Part shown: one piece after another, positions 8,068 to 32,185 of the stretch | How the letters are laid out: each line of letters begins with the position of its first letter | Numbering within the stretch: position 1 is the stretch's first letter | Assembly (NCBI GenBank): GCA_001823055.1 | Contig: MHTH01000013.1 | Coordinates: forward strand, 1 to 35,713 | DNA: 35,713 bases | Direction: 5' to 3' | Origin: Candidatus Vogelbacteria bacterium RIFOXYB1_FULL_42_16 | Lineage (GTDB): Bacteria > Patescibacteriota > Minisyncoccia > Phycocordibacterales > XYD1-FULL-46-19 | Notes under the pieces: generated by a model | Seen by the model: the letters and a program-made list of their open reading frames with translations, nothing else | What the model was told of the DNA's origin: nothing | Database searches by the model: none | Position numbers and translations under genes: made by a program

Positions 8068-8123
8068 CTGTCAAAACTATACCAAATATACACGATCGTG
8101 TATATTTGGTATAGTTTTGACAG
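8068..8123. repeat. 56-bp perfect palindrome upstream of the RNHCP gene
   Basis: CTGTCAAAACTATACCAAAT and the rest of a 28-bp arm are followed immediately by the exact complement, centred on CGATCG, with no loop. It is AT-rich and not followed by a T-run on either strand. It lies about 45 bp before the RNHCP start, so it may be an operator, a cruciform or an element end. Confidence 0.85.
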
Positions 8124-8848: not shown

Positions 8849-8886
8849 AAATCGCCCCGCCCTCACTCGTGAGGGCGGGGCGATTT
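8849..8886 (+). terminator. Strong GC-rich hairpin after the glutaredoxin gene
   Basis: An 18-bp stem AAATCGCCCCGCCCTCAC pairs perfectly with its complement around a TC loop. It lies 10 bp after the stop codon. Confidence 0.8.
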
Positions 8887-9819: not shown

Positions 9820-9867
9820 ATCACCTAAAAATCCGTTTACCAGCTGGTAAACGGATTTTTAGGTGAT
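9820..9867. terminator. Bidirectional terminator between tRNA-Phe and hsp20
   Basis: A 48-bp perfect palindrome centred on CAGCTG; the arms contain AAAAATCCGTTTACC. The A/T-rich stretches serve as U-tracts on both strands. It begins 2 bp after the tRNA and ends at the hsp20 stop. Confidence 0.8.
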
Positions 9868-10381: not shown

Positions 10382-11119
10382 TTAAAAATTTGGCTTGACT
10401 CGTTTGGCGAGCTCAAAGAGAAAGAGAATAATGAGGACAAAAATCCAAAGAACAAACATAATCGGCAACATCATTTGTCCACCACTAATAATTATAAGAA
10501 AATTAAAGGCGGTATGCAAGGCAATAGCCAAGATTACGCCACTAAAAATAGTTAGCCATTTCTGAAGAGATTTTTTATAGAAAGTTAAAGCCCAAGTGGC
10601 GCCGATTAGTGCCGAGCAAACTGTATGGAGAATCGTTGAACCTAAAAAGCGTAGTCCTCCAGTGAATAAAAAGACGCCAAAAGTTTCTTGTTGAGACAAA
10701 GAATTGATTAAGAACAAAAGATTTTCCATACTGGCAAAACCGAGAGCGACCGTGATCATATAGATCATGGCATCGATTGGCTCGTCTAGGTGGCGATTGC
10801 GTCCGATAATAAAAGCGATAGCGCTAAATTTAACCAGTTCTTCGATCACTGCCATATTGATGAAAGGTAGAGTCGACAGCCAGCCAATCCAACCGCTTAT
10901 CTCTAAAGACGGCGATTCAAATAGTTTTTCTAAAAAAAAGGCCACAAAGACAGCAACCAAACCAAGAGTAAAAGTATAAAGAATCAGGCTTTTAGGTTCG
11001 GGATTTTTATGATCTTCCCATAGCCAAAACAATAACCATAAAATCACTGGCAAAAAACCGGTGACAAAAGCCAAAAGAATCATTTGTGGGTCAATCGTTG
11101 CTAGAGTGGTACTAGTCAT
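10382..11119 (-). CDS. PrsW-family intramembrane protease
   Basis: An approximately 245-aa polytopic membrane protein with the PrsW (PF13367) motifs: EELVKFSA (EExxK), GFASMENLLFL (ExxEN type) and HTVCSALIGATWAL (catalytic-type histidine), spread over seven or eight hydrophobic segments. PrsW in Bacillus cleaves an anti-sigma factor; other members have unknown substrates. Start: I prefer the ATG at 11119, overlapping the valS stop by 8 bp, over the ATG at 11140 of the ORF track, because the shorter form starts just before the first membrane helix. Translational coupling to valS is likely. Confidence 0.85.
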   Translation of the reverse strand: MTSTTLATIDPQMILLAFVTGFLPVILWLLFWLWEDHKNPEPKSLILYTFTLGLVAVFVAFFLEKLFESPSLEISGWIGWLSTLPFINMAVIEELVKFSAIAFIIGRNRHLDEPIDAMIYMITVALGFASMENLLFLINSLSQQETFGVFLFTGGLRFLGSTILHTVCSALIGATWALTFYKKSLQKWLTIFSGVILAIALHTAFNFLIIISGGQMMLPIMFVLWIFVLIILFLFELAKRVKPNF

Positions 11120-13229
11120 TTTGGTGAGGCCAATCTTCAACTATTAATAATGAACTGGTGGTGGAAAATTTACCGATCTGCCATAATTCTTCGGTCACAA
11201 AAGGCATAAAAGGATGAAGCAGTTTAAGAGTTTGACCTAAAATCAGACGCAGGGTTTGTCGACGGGTATCGGCGACTTCACCTGGTGTGGCCAAAATCGC
11301 TTTGCTTTCCTCGATAATTTCGTCAGCCAGACGATGCCAAGCATAATGATAAATTTTTTCACCTGCTAAATAAAAACGATAATTTTCCAAATCATTTGTC
11401 ACAGCGGTCGCTAACTCGTTAAACTCTTTCAATAAGTTGGCTTCGGTCGGCGTTTCGTTGTCTGTCGGAGCATAACTTAAAATAAATCGACTGATATTCC
11501 AGAGTTTATTGGAAAAATGTTTGTAAGCTTTGATTTTATCCTCGGCTAGAGCCATGGCTGTGCCGGGAGTATTACCAATCACCAACGCCATGCGGAGAGC
11601 GTCGGCGCCGTATTTATTGACAATCTCGATCGGGTTAATAACATTGCCTTTACTCTTGCTCATTTTGAGGCCTTGGCCGTCGCGAACCATACCGTGCAGA
11701 TAAACAGTATGAAAAGGAATTTGATTGGTGCGATAGAGACCGAGCATAATCATGCGGGCGACCCAAAAAAAGAGAATATCGGCACCGGTTTCCATCACAG
11801 CGGTCGGATAAAAATTTTTATAATCTTTGTTTTCCGGATAACCGAGAGTGGCAAAAGGCCATTGGCCGGACGAAAACCAAGTATCAAAAGTGTCTGGATC
11901 TTGGACTAACTCACTGCCACATTGGCCGCAAGTAGTTTTTTTGTTTTCCAGATCAGGTACACCAAAATCGCATTTAGGACAAATTTTAGCCGGAATTTGA
12001 ATCCCCCAAGCGATTTGGCGAGAGATATTCCAATCACGGATATTGTCCAACCAATTAGTAAATATTTTTTTTGAGAAATCGGGAATAATTTTTATGTCGC
12101 CATCGTAAACTGCCTTCAGAGCTGGTTTGGCTAATGGTTCCATTTTGACAAACCATTGGGGAATGACTCTTGGCTCCAAAACCCGTCCACATTTATAGCA
12201 GGCAATGACATTGTGTTCGTAAGGTTCTTCTTTGATCAGCAAGCCAAGCTCTTTTAAATCGGCAACGACCGTGGTCCGCGCTTCGTCGACTTTCAGGCCG
12301 GTATATTTGCCGGTCTTGTCGTTGAGTTTGCCAAATTGATCGATGACTTCGATGGCGGGGAGATTGTGTCGCTTGGCCAAATCAAAGTCGTTTTGGTCGT
12401 GAGCGGGCGTAATTTTCAGAGCGCCAGTGCCAAAATCTTTTTCTACGATTGGATCAGCAACGACTTTTAATTTCATTGAACCGATCGGCGTTTGAACTTC
12501 AATGTCTTGATCGATATATTGCTGGTAGCGTTCATCATCTGGGTTGACCGCTACCGCTACATCGCCAAACATGGTTTCGGGACGGACAGTGGCGACGACC
12601 AATGGTCCGTATTGTAGATAATAAAGTTTGTCGATCCGAGTCTCGGTGCTTGTTTCCAGATCAGACAGAGAAGTTTGATGTTTAGTGCACCAGTTGACCA
12701 AACGCTTGCCCCGATAAATCAAATCATCGTCATAGAGTTGTTGAAAGGTGCCGTAAACTGTTTTGATGATCGCTGGATCGAGAGTAAATTTTTCTCTTGA
12801 CCAATCACAGGAAGCACCGAGAGCTTTTAGCTCCGCTTCCATATATTTTTTATTTTCTAGCGTAAAAGCCATAATCTCGTCGTATAGTTTTTGGCGATCC
12901 ATGCCAAAACGAGACCGGCCTTCTTTTTCCAATTTCTTTTCGTAGACCACTTGGGTTTCAAAGCCGGCATGATCGGCGCCCGGTAGCCACAGAGTTTTAA
13001 AGCCTCGCATCCGCTTGTAGCGAATCATCAAATCTTCAATCGTGACAAAGAGGGCGTGACCGGCGTGGAGATGGCCGTTGGCGTTGGGCGGAGGCATAAT
13101 GATGGTGAAAGGTTTGGAACGGTCACCAGATAGGTTTTCTGGCTGAAAAAAACCGCTCTCTTGCCAGAGATCGTAGATTCTTGATTCAGTGTCAGCTGGA
13201 TTGTAGGGTTTTTCCAGTTTTGGGTCCAT
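11112..13229 (-). CDS. valS: Valyl-tRNA synthetase
   Basis: A 705-aa class I aminoacyl-tRNA synthetase that charges tRNA-Val. The HIGH-type motif is in PPPNANGHLHAGHAL (about 48-60) and the KMSKS motif in GLKMSKSKGNV. The CP1 editing domain is present (VATVRPETMFGDVAVAV, GTGALKITPAHDQND), and two CxxC pairs (CPKC, CGQC) form a zinc site before DTFDTWFSSGQWPF. The anticodon-binding domain ends at LIVEDWP. It is about 170-250 residues shorter than typical ValS and lacks the C-terminal coiled-coil arm, as expected for reduced genomes. Its cognate tRNA-Val lies nearby at 14617-14690. Confidence 0.96.
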   Translation of the reverse strand: MDPKLEKPYNPADTESRIYDLWQESGFFQPENLSGDRSKPFTIIMPPPNANGHLHAGHALFVTIEDLMIRYKRMRGFKTLWLPGADHAGFETQVVYEKKLEKEGRSRFGMDRQKLYDEIMAFTLENKKYMEAELKALGASCDWSREKFTLDPAIIKTVYGTFQQLYDDDLIYRGKRLVNWCTKHQTSLSDLETSTETRIDKLYYLQYGPLVVATVRPETMFGDVAVAVNPDDERYQQYIDQDIEVQTPIGSMKLKVVADPIVEKDFGTGALKITPAHDQNDFDLAKRHNLPAIEVIDQFGKLNDKTGKYTGLKVDEARTTVVADLKELGLLIKEEPYEHNVIACYKCGRVLEPRVIPQWFVKMEPLAKPALKAVYDGDIKIIPDFSKKIFTNWLDNIRDWNISRQIAWGIQIPAKICPKCDFGVPDLENKKTTCGQCGSELVQDPDTFDTWFSSGQWPFATLGYPENKDYKNFYPTAVMETGADILFFWVARMIMLGLYRTNQIPFHTVYLHGMVRDGQGLKMSKSKGNVINPIEIVNKYGADALRMALVIGNTPGTAMALAEDKIKAYKHFSNKLWNISRFILSYAPTDNETPTEANLLKEFNELATAVTNDLENYRFYLAGEKIYHYAWHRLADEIIEESKAILATPGEVADTRRQTLRLILGQTLKLLHPFMPFVTEELWQIGKFSTTSSLLIVEDWPHQND

Positions 13230-13255: not shown

Positions 13256-13396
13256 GTTATTTCAAAACTTTTTACTCGGCACAACATTTTAAGGGTACGG
13301 ATTTTTCGAAGCTTGAAAAATCCTGAAGTTTTCGCGTCGACACGCTCAAAACCCCCTTAAAATGTTGTGCCTCGTAATTCAAAGTTTTGAAATAAC
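13256..13396 (+). repeat. Covarying structured element, copy A
   Basis: Core AGGGTACGGATTTTTCG followed by a 9-bp hairpin (HP1, 13299-13323), then a second hairpin (HP2, 13328-13352; GTTTT..CGT-CGAC-ACG..AAAAC). The core is enclosed by a proximal arm (CGGCACAACATTTTAAGGG with its complement) and a distal arm GTTATTTCAAAACTTT with AAAGTTTTGAAATAAC, separated by an internal loop. It lies between tsaD (stop 3 bp away) and valS, with the core antisense to both. Other copies: 21440-21575, 29896-30043 (minus), 31393-31528. Confidence 0.8.
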
Positions 13397-13398
13397 AT

Positions 13399-14559
13399 TT
13401 AGTTTCCAAGCTTTAGATTCCCGTCAGCTTTGATTTTACCAATCGTTGGGAGTTTAGCTTTAACTGTCAATTTTAAGTAACCAGCGCCAGCGATCATGGT
13501 GGCGTTGTCGCCAGTTAGATTTTGGTCGGGGAGAATGAGTAAGATTTTTTGGTCAGTGTTAGTGACAGTCTTAGTAAAAGCCTCGCGAATGGCGCGGTTG
13601 GCGATGACACCACCACCGACGATGATCGACTTGGTGCCGTATTTTTTAGCAGCCGACATTGTTTTAGCGACAACGACTTCGGCGGCTGCGTCTTCAAATT
13701 CTTTAGCGATAGATGCTTTTTGCTCGGAGGAAAGGTCGCCCAATTTTTTAATGAGATAAAGAACGGCGGTTTTTAGACCAGAAAAAGAAAAATCAAAATC
13801 ACCGGAGTGGAGCATGGGGCGTGGTAGTTTGATCTCATCTCTTTTTTTACCAATTTCTGCCAGTTTGGAGATTTCTGGTCCGCCTGGGTATGGTAGATCG
13901 AGGAGGCGAGCAACTTTATCGAAAGCTTCACCGACGGCATCGTCGCGAGTATGACCAATGGCTTGGTAGTCACGCCATTTTTTAACTAAAACCAATTCGG
14001 TATGCCCTCCCGAAATGATGACTCCCACTGCCGGAAAAGAAATTTTTATTACTTTCTTATTTAAAAGTGGGGCAATTAAATGTCCTTCGAGATGATTGGT
14101 TGGCACGACTGGAATATCCCAGAGCAAGCTTAGGGCTTGGGCAAAATTTATTCCCACCCACAGGGCTGGTTCAAGGCCGGGTCCCGAAGTGACAGCGATG
14201 GCGTCAATTTTTGGCGCTGGTATGTCCACGATCTGATCAAAAAAAGCAGTTCTTAACTCAGGCTCTCTTTCGAGAATTTTTTCTAGTTTTCTAGCTTGCC
14301 CCGTGGCGAGCCCATCAGCGAGTTTTACGGGGTTTTTTGAAGTCGAATTTAGCGCCTCAATTAATAGGGGCACTAAATTCTTGCCGTGCTCTCTTTTGGC
14401 GAGCATTGGCACTACACCGCCGAATTCGCGGTGAAGTTCGATCTGAGAAGAAACTAATTGGGTCAAGACCGAAAAAACCGGTTTAGTTAAACCGCCCTTG
14501 GCCTCAACGATACTGATAGCCGTTTCGTCACAACTGGTTTCTATGGCTAGAATTTTCAT
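13399..14559 (-). CDS. tsaD: tRNA threonylcarbamoyladenosine transferase TsaD
   Basis: A 386-aa ASKHA-fold enzyme that, with TsaB and TsaE, installs threonylcarbamoyl on A37 of tRNAs reading ANN codons. The start MKILAIETSCDETA is the family N-terminus, so 14559 is chosen over 14592. TNHLEGHLIAP supplies the metal-binding HxxxH, and IIVGGGVIANRAIREAF and GDNATMIAGAG are further family blocks. Relative to the usual protein there is an extra segment of about 45 residues between REHGKNLVPL and the TSGPGLEPALWVG block. On the minus strand TATAGT lies 9 bp before the ATG, so the transcript may be leaderless. No tsaB or tsaE gene is visible here. Confidence 0.95.
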   Translation of the reverse strand: MKILAIETSCDETAISIVEAKGGLTKPVFSVLTQLVSSQIELHREFGGVVPMLAKREHGKNLVPLLIEALNSTSKNPVKLADGLATGQARKLEKILEREPELRTAFFDQIVDIPAPKIDAIAVTSGPGLEPALWVGINFAQALSLLWDIPVVPTNHLEGHLIAPLLNKKVIKISFPAVGVIISGGHTELVLVKKWRDYQAIGHTRDDAVGEAFDKVARLLDLPYPGGPEISKLAEIGKKRDEIKLPRPMLHSGDFDFSFSGLKTAVLYLIKKLGDLSSEQKASIAKEFEDAAAEVVVAKTMSAAKKYGTKSIIVGGGVIANRAIREAFTKTVTNTDQKILLILPDQNLTGDNATMIAGAGYLKLTVKAKLPTIGKIKADGNLKLGN

Positions 14560-14616
14560 AATGGGACTATAACAAAAAATGACCCAAAACAAAAACCACT
14601 TTAAAAGCAGTTTTTG

Positions 14617-16104: not shown

Positions 16105-16156
16105 TCACATCATAGAGAAAAGAGCGCACTGCTGCGCTCTTTTCTCTATGATGTGA
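16105..16156 (-). terminator. Hairpin after tRNA-Glu
   Basis: Two 24-bp perfectly complementary arms (TCACATCATAGAGAAAAGAG...) around a 4-base loop CTGC. The right arm covers the last three bases of tRNA-Glu, so the hairpin competes with the acceptor stem end. It probably terminates the tRNA transcript. Confidence 0.7.
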
Positions 16157-20883: not shown

Positions 20884-21057
20884 TTAAGAAATAGCATAAT
20901 CCACCATGTTCTGCCCTTTATCAGATTTCGGTTTCGGAATCTCAAACCATTCCGGATGAACTTTGTACATTGCCCTTAATTCTTGTATACTATTATCAAT
21001 ATCCTTGAATTTGAAACACTTTTTCGGTTCAAACTTCGGAACATCGCCTCCGCTAAA
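20884..21057 (-). pseudogene. Truncated minus-strand ORF remnant
   Basis: An open frame of 57 codons without a good start: FSGGDVPKFEPKKCFKF continuing to EWFEIPKPKSDKGQNM and VDYAIS, then TAA. It begins where the frame meets a TAG created by the palindrome at 21058-21092. The composition is protein-like (charged, aromatic WFE), so it is likely the 3' end of a gene cut off at the island boundary. I do not recognise it. Confidence 0.45.
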
Positions 21058-21092
21058 CTATTAAACCCCTGCCATTGGCAGGGGTTTAATAG
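21058..21092. terminator. Bidirectional hairpin at the right end of the island
   Basis: CTATTAAACCCCTGCCA and its complement flank one T. It lies downstream of the DUF5652-like gene (minus strand) and of the island's plus-strand operon, so it can terminate both. Confidence 0.75.
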
Positions 21093-21116
21093 TAGTTAAA
21101 CTAAATTTAAAATTCC

Positions 21117-21386
21117 TTACTTCTTTTTTCGGCGGACCAAGAAGTAATAAATTATATCTAATAAACCAATCGTGTTGATCACCAACAAGGCGATAAACCA
21201 CCACTTGTCACCATGACGAGCGGCTTTCCACAAAGCCAAACCTTTCCAGACCAATGTCCAGATGATTAAAGCGACTAAAAAAGTAGTCGCGCCGACGGCG
21301 CCAAATAACGCCGAGATGCCCCAGACTTCTGGTGGCATTTTGTCCAACCACGCGGGGCCGGAACTAAGAGCTAATAAGTTTTCCAT
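21117..21386 (-). CDS. DUF5652-like small membrane protein
   Basis: An 89-aa protein with two membrane helices. The second half WTLVWKGLALWKAARHGDKWWFIALLVINTIGLLDIIYYFLV is the pattern I know from DUF5652 proteins, common in Patescibacteria and some archaea: W-K-x-x-A-L-W-x-A-A-R, then the W-F-I-A-L-L-V-x-N-T-x-G helix. A charged KKK tail marks the cytoplasmic end. Function unknown; the conserved amphipathic block between the helices suggests an interaction surface. Single gene, minus strand. Confidence 0.8.
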   Translation of the reverse strand: MENLLALSSGPAWLDKMPPEVWGISALFGAVGATTFLVALIIWTLVWKGLALWKAARHGDKWWFIALLVINTIGLLDIIYYFLVRRKKK

Positions 21387-21439: not shown

Positions 21440-21575
21440 TCAACTAAAAAACTTTTTACTCGACACCAACTTTTTAGGGTACGGATTTTTCGAAGCTTGA
21501 AAAATCCTGAAACGCTCGGCTCGACAGCCTCGCGACCCCCTAAAAAGTTGTGTCTTCGACAAGTTTTTTAGTTGA
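21440..21575 (+). repeat. Covarying structured element, copy B
   Basis: Same core as copy A (HP1 21483-21507). HP2 is GGCT-CGAC-AGCC (21518-21529). The proximal arm CAACTTTTTAGGG pairs with CCCTAAAAAGTTG, and the distal arm TCAACTAAAAAACTT pairs with AAGTTTTTTAGTTGA. The arms are specific to this copy. It lies in the divergent spacer before the ZIP gene. Confidence 0.8.
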
Positions 21576-21607
21576 TTTTTTTAAAAAGACGAGCAGAATA
21601 CAATCAT

Positions 21608-22330
21608 ATGCTTTTTATTATTGCTTTACTGACTTTGGTTTTTACTTTGCTTGGTGGTTGGTTGGCGTTACGTTTTAGTGATCGCTTGCATTTGGTCCTT
21701 GGTTTTTCGGCTGGGGCGGTGATCGCGGTAGCGTTTTTTGATTTATTGCCGGAGGCAATGGCACTCGGAGCTGTCTGGGGATCAGAAACCATTGCGATGA
21801 TTGTTGGCATGAGTTTTGTCGCTTATCTTTTTCTCGATCGCTTTGTTTTTTTCCATCCGCACACTGAAGAATATTGTCACAATGAAAAACATCAGGCGCG
21901 CAGTTGGCTGTCGGCGATCACTTTATCGATCCATAGTTTTTTGGATGGTCTTTTGGTCGGCCTATCTTTTCAAGTCTCGACTACTATTGGTTTGGTCGTC
22001 ACTTTGGCAGTTTTAGCGCATAAATTTTCCGATGGTTTGAGTTTGGTTGGTTTGACCCTTAAAAATGGCACTGATCGCCAAAAAGTCTGGGGCTGGTTGT
22101 GGTTGGATGCCATCGCGCCGGTCGTGGGGATCTTGGTGGCCGGGTTATTTTTTCTGTCTGAAACTTGGTTGGGGGCGGTGCTGGCGATTTTCTGTGGTTT
22201 CTTTTTATACCTCGGCGCTAGCGAATTGCTACCAGAAAGTCATCATGGTCACTCGACACGCTGGACGACGGTGGCCACTTTGGTGGGTTTCGGCCTGATT
22301 TTTATTTTGATAAAAATAATCGGCTCTTAG
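21608..22330 (+). CDS. ZIP-family divalent metal transporter
   Basis: About 240 aa from MLFIIALLTL. The ORF track start at 21572 would lie in the repeat, so the ATG at 21608 is used. Eight hydrophobic segments carry the ZIP signature: FSAGAVIAVAFFDLLPEA in TM2-3, HSFLDGLLVGLSF in TM4 (His-Asp metal site) and HKFSDGLSLVGL in TM5 (His-Asp). The cytosolic loop between TM3 and TM4 is HPHTEEYCHNEKHQ, histidine-rich as usual. It imports zinc, iron or manganese into the cytoplasm. The stop overlaps the convergent trxB-like stop by 4 bp. The leader contains the structured repeat. Confidence 0.92.
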   Translation: MLFIIALLTLVFTLLGGWLALRFSDRLHLVLGFSAGAVIAVAFFDLLPEAMALGAVWGSETIAMIVGMSFVAYLFLDRFVFFHPHTEEYCHNEKHQARSWLSAITLSIHSFLDGLLVGLSFQVSTTIGLVVTLAVLAHKFSDGLSLVGLTLKNGTDRQKVWGWLWLDAIAPVVGILVAGLFFLSETWLGAVLAIFCGFFLYLGASELLPESHHGHSTRWTTVATLVGFGLIFILIKIIGS

Positions 22331-29777: not shown

Positions 29778-29850
29778 ATGTAAATTTTAAAGTTAAAAGT
29801 TGAAAATATAGATTAAAAATTTACATAAGTTAAACATATGGGGAGCTAAT

Positions 29851-29880
29851 CAAAAAATCCGCCAGTTGGCGGATTTTTTG
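29851..29880 (+). terminator. Terminator after the PsbP-like gene
   Basis: CAAAAAATCCGCCA and TGGCGGATTTTTTG pair perfectly around GT; the arm ends supply U-tracts on both strands. Confidence 0.8.
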
Positions 29881-29895
29881 AGGGTTAAACTTACA

Positions 29896-30043
29896 AATTT
29901 TGAATTACAAGAACTCGTTGAGGCAGAAACTTTTTAGGGGGTCGTGAGGTTGTCGAACCGAACGCTTCAGGATTTTTCAAGCTTCGAAAAATCCGTACCC
30001 TAAAAAGTTTGCTGGTGATAAAGAGTTTTTGCAATTCAAAATT
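29896..30043 (-). repeat. Covarying structured element, copy C
   Basis: Core on the minus strand. HP1 is at 29970-29994 and HP2 is GGTT-CGAC-AACC (29948-29959, read on minus). The proximal arm CTTTTTAGGG pairs with CCCTAAAAAG, and the distal arm AATTTTGAATT pairs with AATTCAAAATT. It lies directly after the S1 stop on the S1 transcript, sense orientation. Confidence 0.8.
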
Positions 30044-30048
30044 ATCAA

Positions 30049-31212
30049 TTATTTCCCTTCCTCCTTTTTTTCTCCCACTTCCGGCAGGGTAATCGCGCCG
30101 AAAGACAAAGTCATTTTCTGATTCCTGGGTTCGAACAAGTTGATGGTAAAAGTATAAGTCTTGCCTAGTTCCAAAGTTTTGCGCAATTCTTCTTCGGTTT
30201 TGAATTCGGAAATGTGAACCAAACCGGCTACGCCTTCTTCGATGCTAATCAACGCACCGTGTTTATTGTATTTAATCACGACCCCTTTGACAATTTCACC
30301 GCGTTTGTATTTCTTTTCCGCTTCGGACCATGGATTGGTCTTTAAGGCTTTGATCGACAGGGAAATCTTATCGTCTTTAATTTCAATAATTTTGGCCTTG
30401 ACCTTTTCGCCTACCTTGAAAACATCGCGCGGATTTTCGACTAGCGACCAATCGATTTCGGAAATGTGAACCAAGCCTTCCAAGCCATCTTCAACTTTAA
30501 TGAAGATACCGAAATCAACGGCGCCAGTCACTTCACCGTCGACAATGTCGCCGAGGGAATATTTTTCAATCAAAGTTTTCTTGGCTTTATTATCCTGATT
30601 TTTTTCCGAGAAAATTAATTTATTTTCGCGTGGGTCGGCGGTAATAATCGAGACTGATAACATTTTACCGACTAATTTTTTCAATTCATCGGCAATCTTG
30701 TCTTTATCACCATCGGTGACGCGCGGATAATGGTCGGCTTTTAGTTGAGAAGCGGGGATAAAACCGTCGATGCCTTGCCATTCCATAATCAAACCGCCCT
30801 TGTTGGCATCTTTGACCATAACATCAAAAACCGCTTTGCTTTTGATCGCTTTTTCGGCGTCACTCCAGACCAAGGCTTGCTTGGCTTCTTTTAGTGACAG
30901 CTCAAAATAGCCCTCCTCGCCTTCTAGAGCGACGACTTTGGCAGTTACCAAATCTCCGATATTAACCTTTTTTATGACATCGCGAGCGTTTAGATATTCG
31001 CGACCGAAAATAATACCAGTGCCAAAAGGAATGATTTCGACATACAAAGACATCTTTTCCTTGGCAATTACTCGACCTTCGACTAACGCTCCCACATCAG
31101 GCAGAGCGGAAGAATTCTTGGTGACTTCTTCCATGGTAGCGCGAACCGCGACTTTACCGACGCCACCGACCGCTTCCTCGTTTTCAATTTCTACTAATTT
31201 TTGATTATCCAT
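30049..31212 (-). CDS. rpsA: Ribosomal protein S1-like (four S1 domains)
   Basis: 387 aa from MDNQKLVEIENEEA; the ORF track start at 31224 is 12 bp upstream. Four S1/OB repeats can be traced: GALVEGRVIAKEKMSLYVEI, KAVFDVMVKDANKGGLIMEW, GDIVDGEVTGAVDFGIFIKVEDGLEGLVHISEIDW and GEIVKGVVIKYNKHGALISIEEGVAGLVHISEF. bS1 brings mRNAs to the 30S subunit, which matters where Shine-Dalgarno sequences are weak, as they are in this window. It is shorter than the six-domain E. coli protein, as in many Gram-positives and CPR. A 118-nt leader precedes it and the structured repeat copy C follows. Confidence 0.92.
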   Translation of the reverse strand: MDNQKLVEIENEEAVGGVGKVAVRATMEEVTKNSSALPDVGALVEGRVIAKEKMSLYVEIIPFGTGIIFGREYLNARDVIKKVNIGDLVTAKVVALEGEEGYFELSLKEAKQALVWSDAEKAIKSKAVFDVMVKDANKGGLIMEWQGIDGFIPASQLKADHYPRVTDGDKDKIADELKKLVGKMLSVSIITADPRENKLIFSEKNQDNKAKKTLIEKYSLGDIVDGEVTGAVDFGIFIKVEDGLEGLVHISEIDWSLVENPRDVFKVGEKVKAKIIEIKDDKISLSIKALKTNPWSEAEKKYKRGEIVKGVVIKYNKHGALISIEEGVAGLVHISEFKTEEELRKTLELGKTYTFTINLFEPRNQKMTLSFGAITLPEVGEKKEEGK

Positions 31213-31330
31213 AAAATAACACATTTAGCCCGTCTTTAGACGAACACTGGAGTCGATTTCAGGGCTTCGGAGAGGGCTTTTAAGGGCGCTTGATCCGGGC
31301 CGAGAGATTTTTCCCACAGTCCTTATAATG
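31213..31330 (-). promoter_or_regulatory. Structured 5' leader of the S1 gene
   Basis: From the minus-strand promoter (-35 TTGCAA 31364-31359, 16 bp, -10 TATACT 31342-31337) transcription would begin near 31330, giving a leader of about 118 nt. It contains the hairpin CGTC-TTTA-GACG near 31231-31242 and GC-rich blocks (GGCCCGGATC, AGCGCCC). S1 genes are often autoregulated through their leader. The 31213-31561 interval otherwise holds the divergent promoters and repeat copy D. Confidence 0.45.
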
Positions 31331-31358
31331 TGGTAGAGTATATAACGAAAAAAAGATT

Positions 31359-31386
31359 TTGCAAACCAAGGTTATTTTGGTATAAT
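31359..31386 (+). promoter_or_regulatory. Promoter of the MBL-gyrA unit, sharing its -35 with the S1 promoter
   Basis: TTGCAA (31359-31364), 16 bp, TATAAT (31381-31386). TTGCAA is its own reverse complement and also serves as -35 of the minus-strand promoter, whose TATACT is likewise 16 bp away. The expected plus-strand start, about 31393, is the first base of the repeat element D. Confidence 0.65.
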
Positions 31387-31392
31387 AAGGTA

Positions 31393-31528
31393 GAAAATAT
31401 GACAGTTTTCTCGCTGATCTAATTTTTAGGGTACGGATTTTTTGAAGCTTAAAAAATCCTGAAACGCTCGTTTCGTCAAACTCGCGACCCCCTAAAAATC
31501 AATCAGCTCAAAAATCTTTTCATTTTTC
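31393..31528 (+). repeat. Covarying structured element, copy D, in the 5' leader of the MBL gene
   Basis: Core HP1 at 31435-31459 has GGATTTTTT-GAAGCTT-AAAAAATCC, where the last pair is T:A instead of C:G. HP2 is GTTT-CGTC-AAAC (31470-31481). The proximal arm GCTGAT..ATTTTTAGGG pairs with CCCTAAAAAT..ATCAGC. A promoter lies directly upstream, so it is probably transcribed as the leader of the following genes. Confidence 0.8.
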
Positions 31529-31561
31529 TGCCAATTTAAAATTTACTTAATAGGGTAAACC

Positions 31562-32185
31562 ATGATCATCAATTATTTCGGACAGGCTTTTATCAAGGCG
31601 CAATTTGGCGACACGGTCGTGGCCTTTAATCCGGTCGCTAAAGAATCCGAGGCCAAGGTCACTCGTTTTGGCGCCGATTTGTGTCTGATTGCCTCTAATG
31701 TGCCGGAAGCCAATGGTCTGGATTCTGTTACCTATGCCAACAAAACGCCTTTTGTCATTGATGGTCCGGGCGAATATGAAAAAACTGGTATTTTTGTGCG
31801 GGGTATTGCCTCGGGCGGAGTTGATGGCTCGGTCAATACTATTTATACGATGACTTTGGATGGGATCAATATCTGTCATCTAGGTTTGCTAAAGGATCCC
31901 AAATTGCCGGATGAGGCCGTGGAAGATATTGGTTCAGTCGATATTCTTTTTGTGCCGATCGGCGGAGGTCAAGTTCTCGAGCCAAAAGAAGCGGCCAAGG
32001 TGGTCGCTGGTTTGGAGCCGAGCGTGATTGTGCCAGTGATGTATGACGACAATCCCGAAGCGCTAAAAATTTTTCTCAAAGAAGCCAGCGATGGCAAGGA
32101 AACAACTGTCGACAAATTGACCGTCAAACGCAAAGATTTGGATGGTAAAGTTGGTGAGGTTATAATCATCAAAGCCGATATCTAA
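31562..32185 (+). CDS. Metallo-beta-lactamase-fold protein, probably without the metal site
   Basis: A 207-aa protein of the UlaG-like MBL group. It begins MIINYFGQAFIKAQFGD like other members and keeps DGPGEYEKTGIFVRGI and the strand CHLGLL. The metal-binding HxHxDH is expected after ADLCLIAS; here the residues are NVPEAN, so the zinc ligands are lost, and the later ligand positions (DILFVPIGGG, VIVPVMY) lack His as well. It therefore looks catalytically inactive, perhaps a binding or structural protein. It is 5 bp before a small membrane protein and gyrA, in one unit. Confidence 0.8.
   Translation: MIINYFGQAFIKAQFGDTVVAFNPVAKESEAKVTRFGADLCLIASNVPEANGLDSVTYANKTPFVIDGPGEYEKTGIFVRGIASGGVDGSVNTIYTMTLDGINICHLGLLKDPKLPDEAVEDIGSVDILFVPIGGGQVLEPKEAAKVVAGLEPSVIVPVMYDDNPEALKIFLKEASDGKETTVDKLTVKRKDLDGKVGEVIIIKADI

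Follow-up and report, generated by a model that had tools for sequence, protein, structure and literature searches.

The window, 35,713 nucleotides of contig MHTH01000013.1 from Candidatus Vogelbacteria bacterium RIFOXYB1_FULL_42_16, contains four copies (A–D) of a hairpin element, all located where a preliminary description of this DNA had placed them. The coordinates of all four copies cover the whole hairpin. Copy A (13256–13396, plus strand) lies in the gap between valS (11112–13229, minus) and the stop codon of tsaD (13399–14592, minus). Its head is composed of stem P1 (13283–13295/13354–13366) and hairpins HP1 (13299–13323) and HP2 (13329–13350). Copy B (21440–21575, plus strand) has an ORF on the minus strand at one side (21117–21386) and an ORF on the plus strand at the other (21572–22330). 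It contains P1 (21467–21479/21538–21550), HP1 (21483–21507) and HP2 (21513–21534), with outer arms at 21440–21466 and 21551–21575. Copy C (29896–30043, minus strand; model match 29922–30010) is located in the 3' region of rpsA (30049–31224, minus), between the rpsA stop codon and a perfect palindrome. Copy D (31389–31532, plus strand; model match 31419–31507) is located upstream of an ORF at 31562–32185 (plus). Copy D begins a few nucleotides past a promoter-like sequence, TTTGCA-17-TATAAT (31358–31386), so D may be the leading part of the transcript that runs downstream. Compared with dinucleotide shuffles, the folds of A, B, C and D had z-scores of −11.1, −8.9, −8.4 and −6.2, respectively. 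Re-reading of the sequence reproduced the HP2 stems and proximal arms first reported for the four copies, as well as the C:G to T:A change in HP1 of copy D.

The window also contains eight perfect palindromes with arms of 15–28 bp and a centre of 0–4 nt (341–379, 827–872, 8068–8123, 8849–8886, 9820–9867, 16105–16156, 21057–21093 and 29850–29881). Several of them are directly 3' of tRNA or RNase P RNA genes. Some are terminator-like, and those following tRNA genes have no T run. Their density was 22 per 100 kb in the window, about 1 in each of two relatives, G028 and G110 (congeners with about 89% DNA identity), and zero in 20 Markov controls.

Structure, covariation and distribution of the element

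In the 611-kb host genome, BLAST and covariance searches detected 12 full copies, along with one or two fragments; the four copies first described were real but represented only part of this set. The element is about 110–150 bp long. The conserved head carried by its arms of about 30 bp is built as a three-way junction; it includes two short hairpins (HP1 and HP2) and unpaired bases that are conserved. Several head classes were found, and all are built alike. A G-rich arm end is followed by ACGG-like junction bases and HP1 (loop GAAGCTT or TGCT); after a short linker come HP2, which has both a TC/TC loop and a loop resembling CGTC, and finally an arm end rich in C.

Alignment of the 12 copies supported P1 (13 pairs counted), HP1 (11 pairs) and HP2 (3 + 4 pairs), with 98.4% of the cells paired. 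Both sides changed in 13 of the 31 pairs, and there were 37 double-change cells against a single one-sided change. The covariation score was 0.320, compared with 0.099 for shuffled alignments and at most 0.053 when the partners were slid by one to three columns, which removed the signal. HP2 proved larger than first described: the TC/TC internal loop divides it into an inner 4-bp stem and an outer 3-bp stem, and the outer stem also covaries (CGC/GCG, CGT/ACG, TTT/AAA). In a diverse alignment, 361 cells showed double changes and 4 showed one-sided changes; this alignment was fitted to the structure and is biased toward pairing, although not toward Watson–Crick over wobble pairs. The structure and its compensatory changes, as originally proposed, therefore hold across many genomes.

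The outer arms are copy-specific. Beyond P1, the two arms of one element formed a median of 17 more Watson–Crick pairs (up to 43), whereas the left arm of one copy and the right arm of another formed a median of 0. Recent duplication of one copy, which the preliminary description had set against its own reading, thus does not account for the arms.

A model built from the 12 copies (R1) had matches in 20 of 80 relatives, each of which carried between one and 17 copies. A broader model built from 44 copies (R2) matched 175 of 397 genomes of the same order. When 380 genomes were drawn from the whole phylum, 18 had matches, 12 of which belonged to the same order; outside this order the element is rarely found in the phylum. 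Exact-pattern matches in named genomes were mostly from Parcubacteria-type bacteria (Nomura-, Yonath-, Yanofsky-, Vogelbacteria and others), with some records labelled merely Patescibacteria or uncultured bacterium. Rfam gave zero matches at both gathering and permissive thresholds. Phages and plasmids gave no match, nor did viral contigs searched with two exact patterns, and no description of the element was found in the open-access literature on Patescibacteria/CPR repeats. The earlier statement that no described element has this core is in agreement with these searches. The copies apparently constitute a large, widespread and undescribed repeat family between the genes of Parcubacteria-type bacteria with reduced genomes.

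Gene context and turnover of occupied sites

The element is inserted where genes are separated by short gaps, frequently right behind a stop codon; the median distance from stop codon to head was 24 nt. Divergent gaps hold 15 of 115 copies, and some copies are located between same-direction genes, for example before trmD-like genes. In line with what had been noted, the neighbouring genes do not dictate orientation, and both orientations relative to the genes occur. Within tandem gene pairs, however, head and genes shared a strand in 48 cases and did not in 27.

We compared 19 slots between G028 and G110, assigning classes by reading: 5 had the same head, 2 had it inverted, 7 carried a different class of head or hairpin, 1 had lost the head with the arms kept, 2 were clean empty sites and 2 were otherwise changed. 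The empty sites corresponded to the copy of L135, absent in G110, and the copy of L127, absent in G028; no pre-existing hairpin was seen at either. In G281, one copy is located downstream of a recombinase-like gene, where at least seven congeners have bare gaps of 13–26 bp with no palindrome and one congener bears a different hairpin. Copies C and D had no counterpart at the rpsA flanks in the eight family relatives that were read. Among the rpsA loci of 13 relatives, only L339 and, weakly, L331 gave a model match, about 1 kb from rpsA. Empty sites, whose existence in relatives the preliminary description had left to be checked, thus do occur. These results show that the family is mobile, and its layout is unusually modular.

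The unique outer stems in G281 had suggested insertion into pre-existing hairpins. This idea was rejected at the one G281 site tested because most congeners have bare gaps there.

About 14 of the 19 slots carry some head or hairpin in both congeners. Re-occupation of the same slots by different heads goes beyond simple random insertion, and the hairpin could have a job there. One such job would be that of a transcription terminator or mRNA 3'-end structure, for which the slots are kept. The jointly occupied slots and the short distance from stop codons fit this explanation; however, the host genome still has, downstream of copy C, a separate terminator-like palindrome (29850–29881), the eight relatives have ordinary terminators after rpsA, and copies also occur in divergent gaps and between same-direction genes. 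We regard a terminator function as quite improbable.

At L144:7164–7350 in G028, a class 3 element and one half of a class 1 element are neighbours, separated by a direct repeat of about 31 bp, and the same slot in G110 holds an intact class 1 element. In addition, L147 (near 10782–10927, G028) and L308 (G416) carry hairpins with different, larger or diverged heads in slots that hold ordinary heads in relatives, which suggests that there are more head classes than the model detects.

Probable DNA-level pairing, mobilisation and proposed arm copying

A structured RNA should tolerate G.U pairs, and one read from the head strand would be expected to have a G.U excess throughout. We counted mismatches on the head strand of 139 non-redundant elements. 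P1, HP2 and the outer arms together contained 122 A.C and 59 G.T mismatches, counts that are not independent, since the copies are related to one another; HP1, outside that sum, contained 9 A.C and 24 G.T. G.U was thus not preferred over other mismatches on the head strand, and the rarity of G.T relative to A.C points to pairing that is maintained at the DNA level, unlike that of a structural RNA. Read from the complementary strand, the same counts are a two-fold G.U excess. An excess of this size is small beside that of known structural RNAs, and the complementary strand may have a weak role as RNA or single-stranded DNA.

We weighed the possibility that the element is a structured RNA, either cis-regulatory or small, that has been copied to many places in the genome and whose fold is kept by selection on the transcript. 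The very strong covariation, the conserved unpaired bases, the promoter-like site just before copy D, the many copies right after stop codons and the lean toward the gene strand are consistent with it. The shortage of G.T, the inversion and swapping of heads at orthologous sites, the occurrence of both gene orientations and the lack of an Rfam match argue against it, and we consider it improbable.

Direct repeats of about 10 bp surround several copies in G061 (for example, CTTGACTTCC and TGGCTTTCGATA), and the G061 copies share the ends CTGTCCGGGG. Outside G061, direct repeats were not clearly above the control, and the two clean empty sites of G028 and G110 had none; target duplication was clear in G061 only. 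An end-pattern search of the G061 genome found no autonomous partner with the same ends: the matches were element copies, except for two chance-like ones with 3 mismatches. Two further places that looked like a longer element with these ends were element copies with a GC-rich hairpin nested in HP2.

These data bear on the view that the family is a classical MITE, in which a DDE transposase would act on the arms as its terminal inverted repeats, the head being cargo. In its favour, besides the repeats and common ends in G061, arms resembled each other more within a genus, even across head classes (7.9), than between genera (6.2) or after shuffling (6.3), with head-class labels that were set by simple patterns and are approximate. 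On the other hand, G061 has no other element with these ends, direct repeats are missing at the empty sites and in most genomes, and it is the head, not the ends, that is conserved across genera. A classical MITE is therefore unlikely in our judgement. ERIC and Correia/NEMIS are short, multi-copy intergenic inverted-repeat elements with strong predicted folds, some with target duplications. The present element resembles these in being intergenic and multi-copy, with a length of the order of 100–160 bp, terminal inverted repeats and no coding capacity. The same likeness extends to the bcr1–bcr3 repeats, which are MITE-like bacterial repeats (PMC3446304). It differs from all of them in having a three-way-junction head that is common to several genera, although its inverted repeats have next to nothing in common from one genus to another, and in that heads are inverted and exchanged at one site.

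REPINs and REP elements are short extragenic palindromic hairpins with compensatory changes that occur in clusters and are regarded as non-autonomous mobile DNA (PMC3116915, PMC3733652). The present family likewise consists of multi-copy extragenic hairpins; it shows compensatory changes, forms clusters and includes nested insertions, and it could be moved by a REP-associated tyrosine (Y1) transposase. Y1 genes were found in 55 of 80 relatives, including the host genome with three matches. However, Y1 matches were absent in the copy-rich genomes G281, G028, G033, G355 and G005 (95–99% complete), and G110 had only a sub-threshold match (E 0.06). Y1 transposase was thus rejected as a necessary partner; the Y1 family is the one whose co-occurrence with copy number was examined. 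In addition, REPINs conserve both ends (REPs, with a GTAG or CGTC tag) and vary in the middle, whereas here the tip is conserved, the arm ends vary and there is no conserved GTAG or CGTC end tag. Movement of a REPIN-like element by Y1 is accordingly not likely. Neither the Y1 searches in relatives nor the end-pattern search of G061 linked a transposase or recombinase to the family. The family is of the DNA type and works like REPINs and MITEs, yet it lacks conserved tagged ends, in several copy-rich genomes a cognate Y1 gene and, in G061, an autonomous partner.

Integron attC sites are recombination sites recognised by a folded single-strand structure with variable stems. By eye, the heads contain no conserved attC core motifs; the copies here are scattered in both orientations and show no cassette-array layout.

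Arm-to-arm copying is suggested by a few orthologous loci of G028 and G110. At L134/L114, both arms changed alike, including a change in length, and one unpaired difference was left. L139/L128 showed one coupled and one uncoupled change, L074/L131 one uncoupled change only, and L137/L121 neither kind. In E. coli, imperfect palindromes are known to be made perfect by template switching, which produces coupled multi-base changes at such sites (PMC7202029). The coupled arm changes between close species, together with the lack of wobble preference over A.C, are better explained by DNA-level copying of arms within a mobile element than by selection on RNA, and narrow the original proposal of "RNA or single-stranded DNA" to the DNA side.

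We therefore think it fairly probable that the family consists of small non-autonomous mobile DNA hairpins, MITE- or REPIN-like, in which copying from one arm to the other keeps the arms identical. The element would move when its folded head is recognised, as DNA, by a protein supplied in trans. Folding of the hairpin in single-stranded DNA would let one arm template the other, either by quasipalindrome template switching or by fold-back repair of the moving strand. Arms templated in this way would drift freely in sequence yet nearly always match, and their covariation would arise largely by mutation, not by selection on RNA. The small head stems, which covary while the loops and the TC/TC bases stay fixed, are probably maintained by selection as a structure to be recognised. 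A more specific version, doubtful but worth stating, is a modular element recognised by shape, in which a structure-specific recombinase inverts and exchanges heads on lineage-specific arms and fold-back copying rewrites the arms at each move, giving perfect covariation without selection for pairing. Such a mobilising enzyme, if it exists, would be new. Textbook-grade covariation that seemingly arises at the DNA level calls for caution in covariation-based RNA discovery, and comparison of sister species makes arm-to-arm copying measurable in this system.

Nested and tandem arrangements were also observed. A GC-rich hairpin repeat (like CCTGCCCGCCGAAGCCTCGGCGCAGGCGGG) is nested in HP2 at L087 (G006) and at L178 and L181 (G061), one palindromic repeat being inserted in another. 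At G006:C6:211660–211900 (L068), three elements, two of them reduced, lie in tandem within 250 bp.
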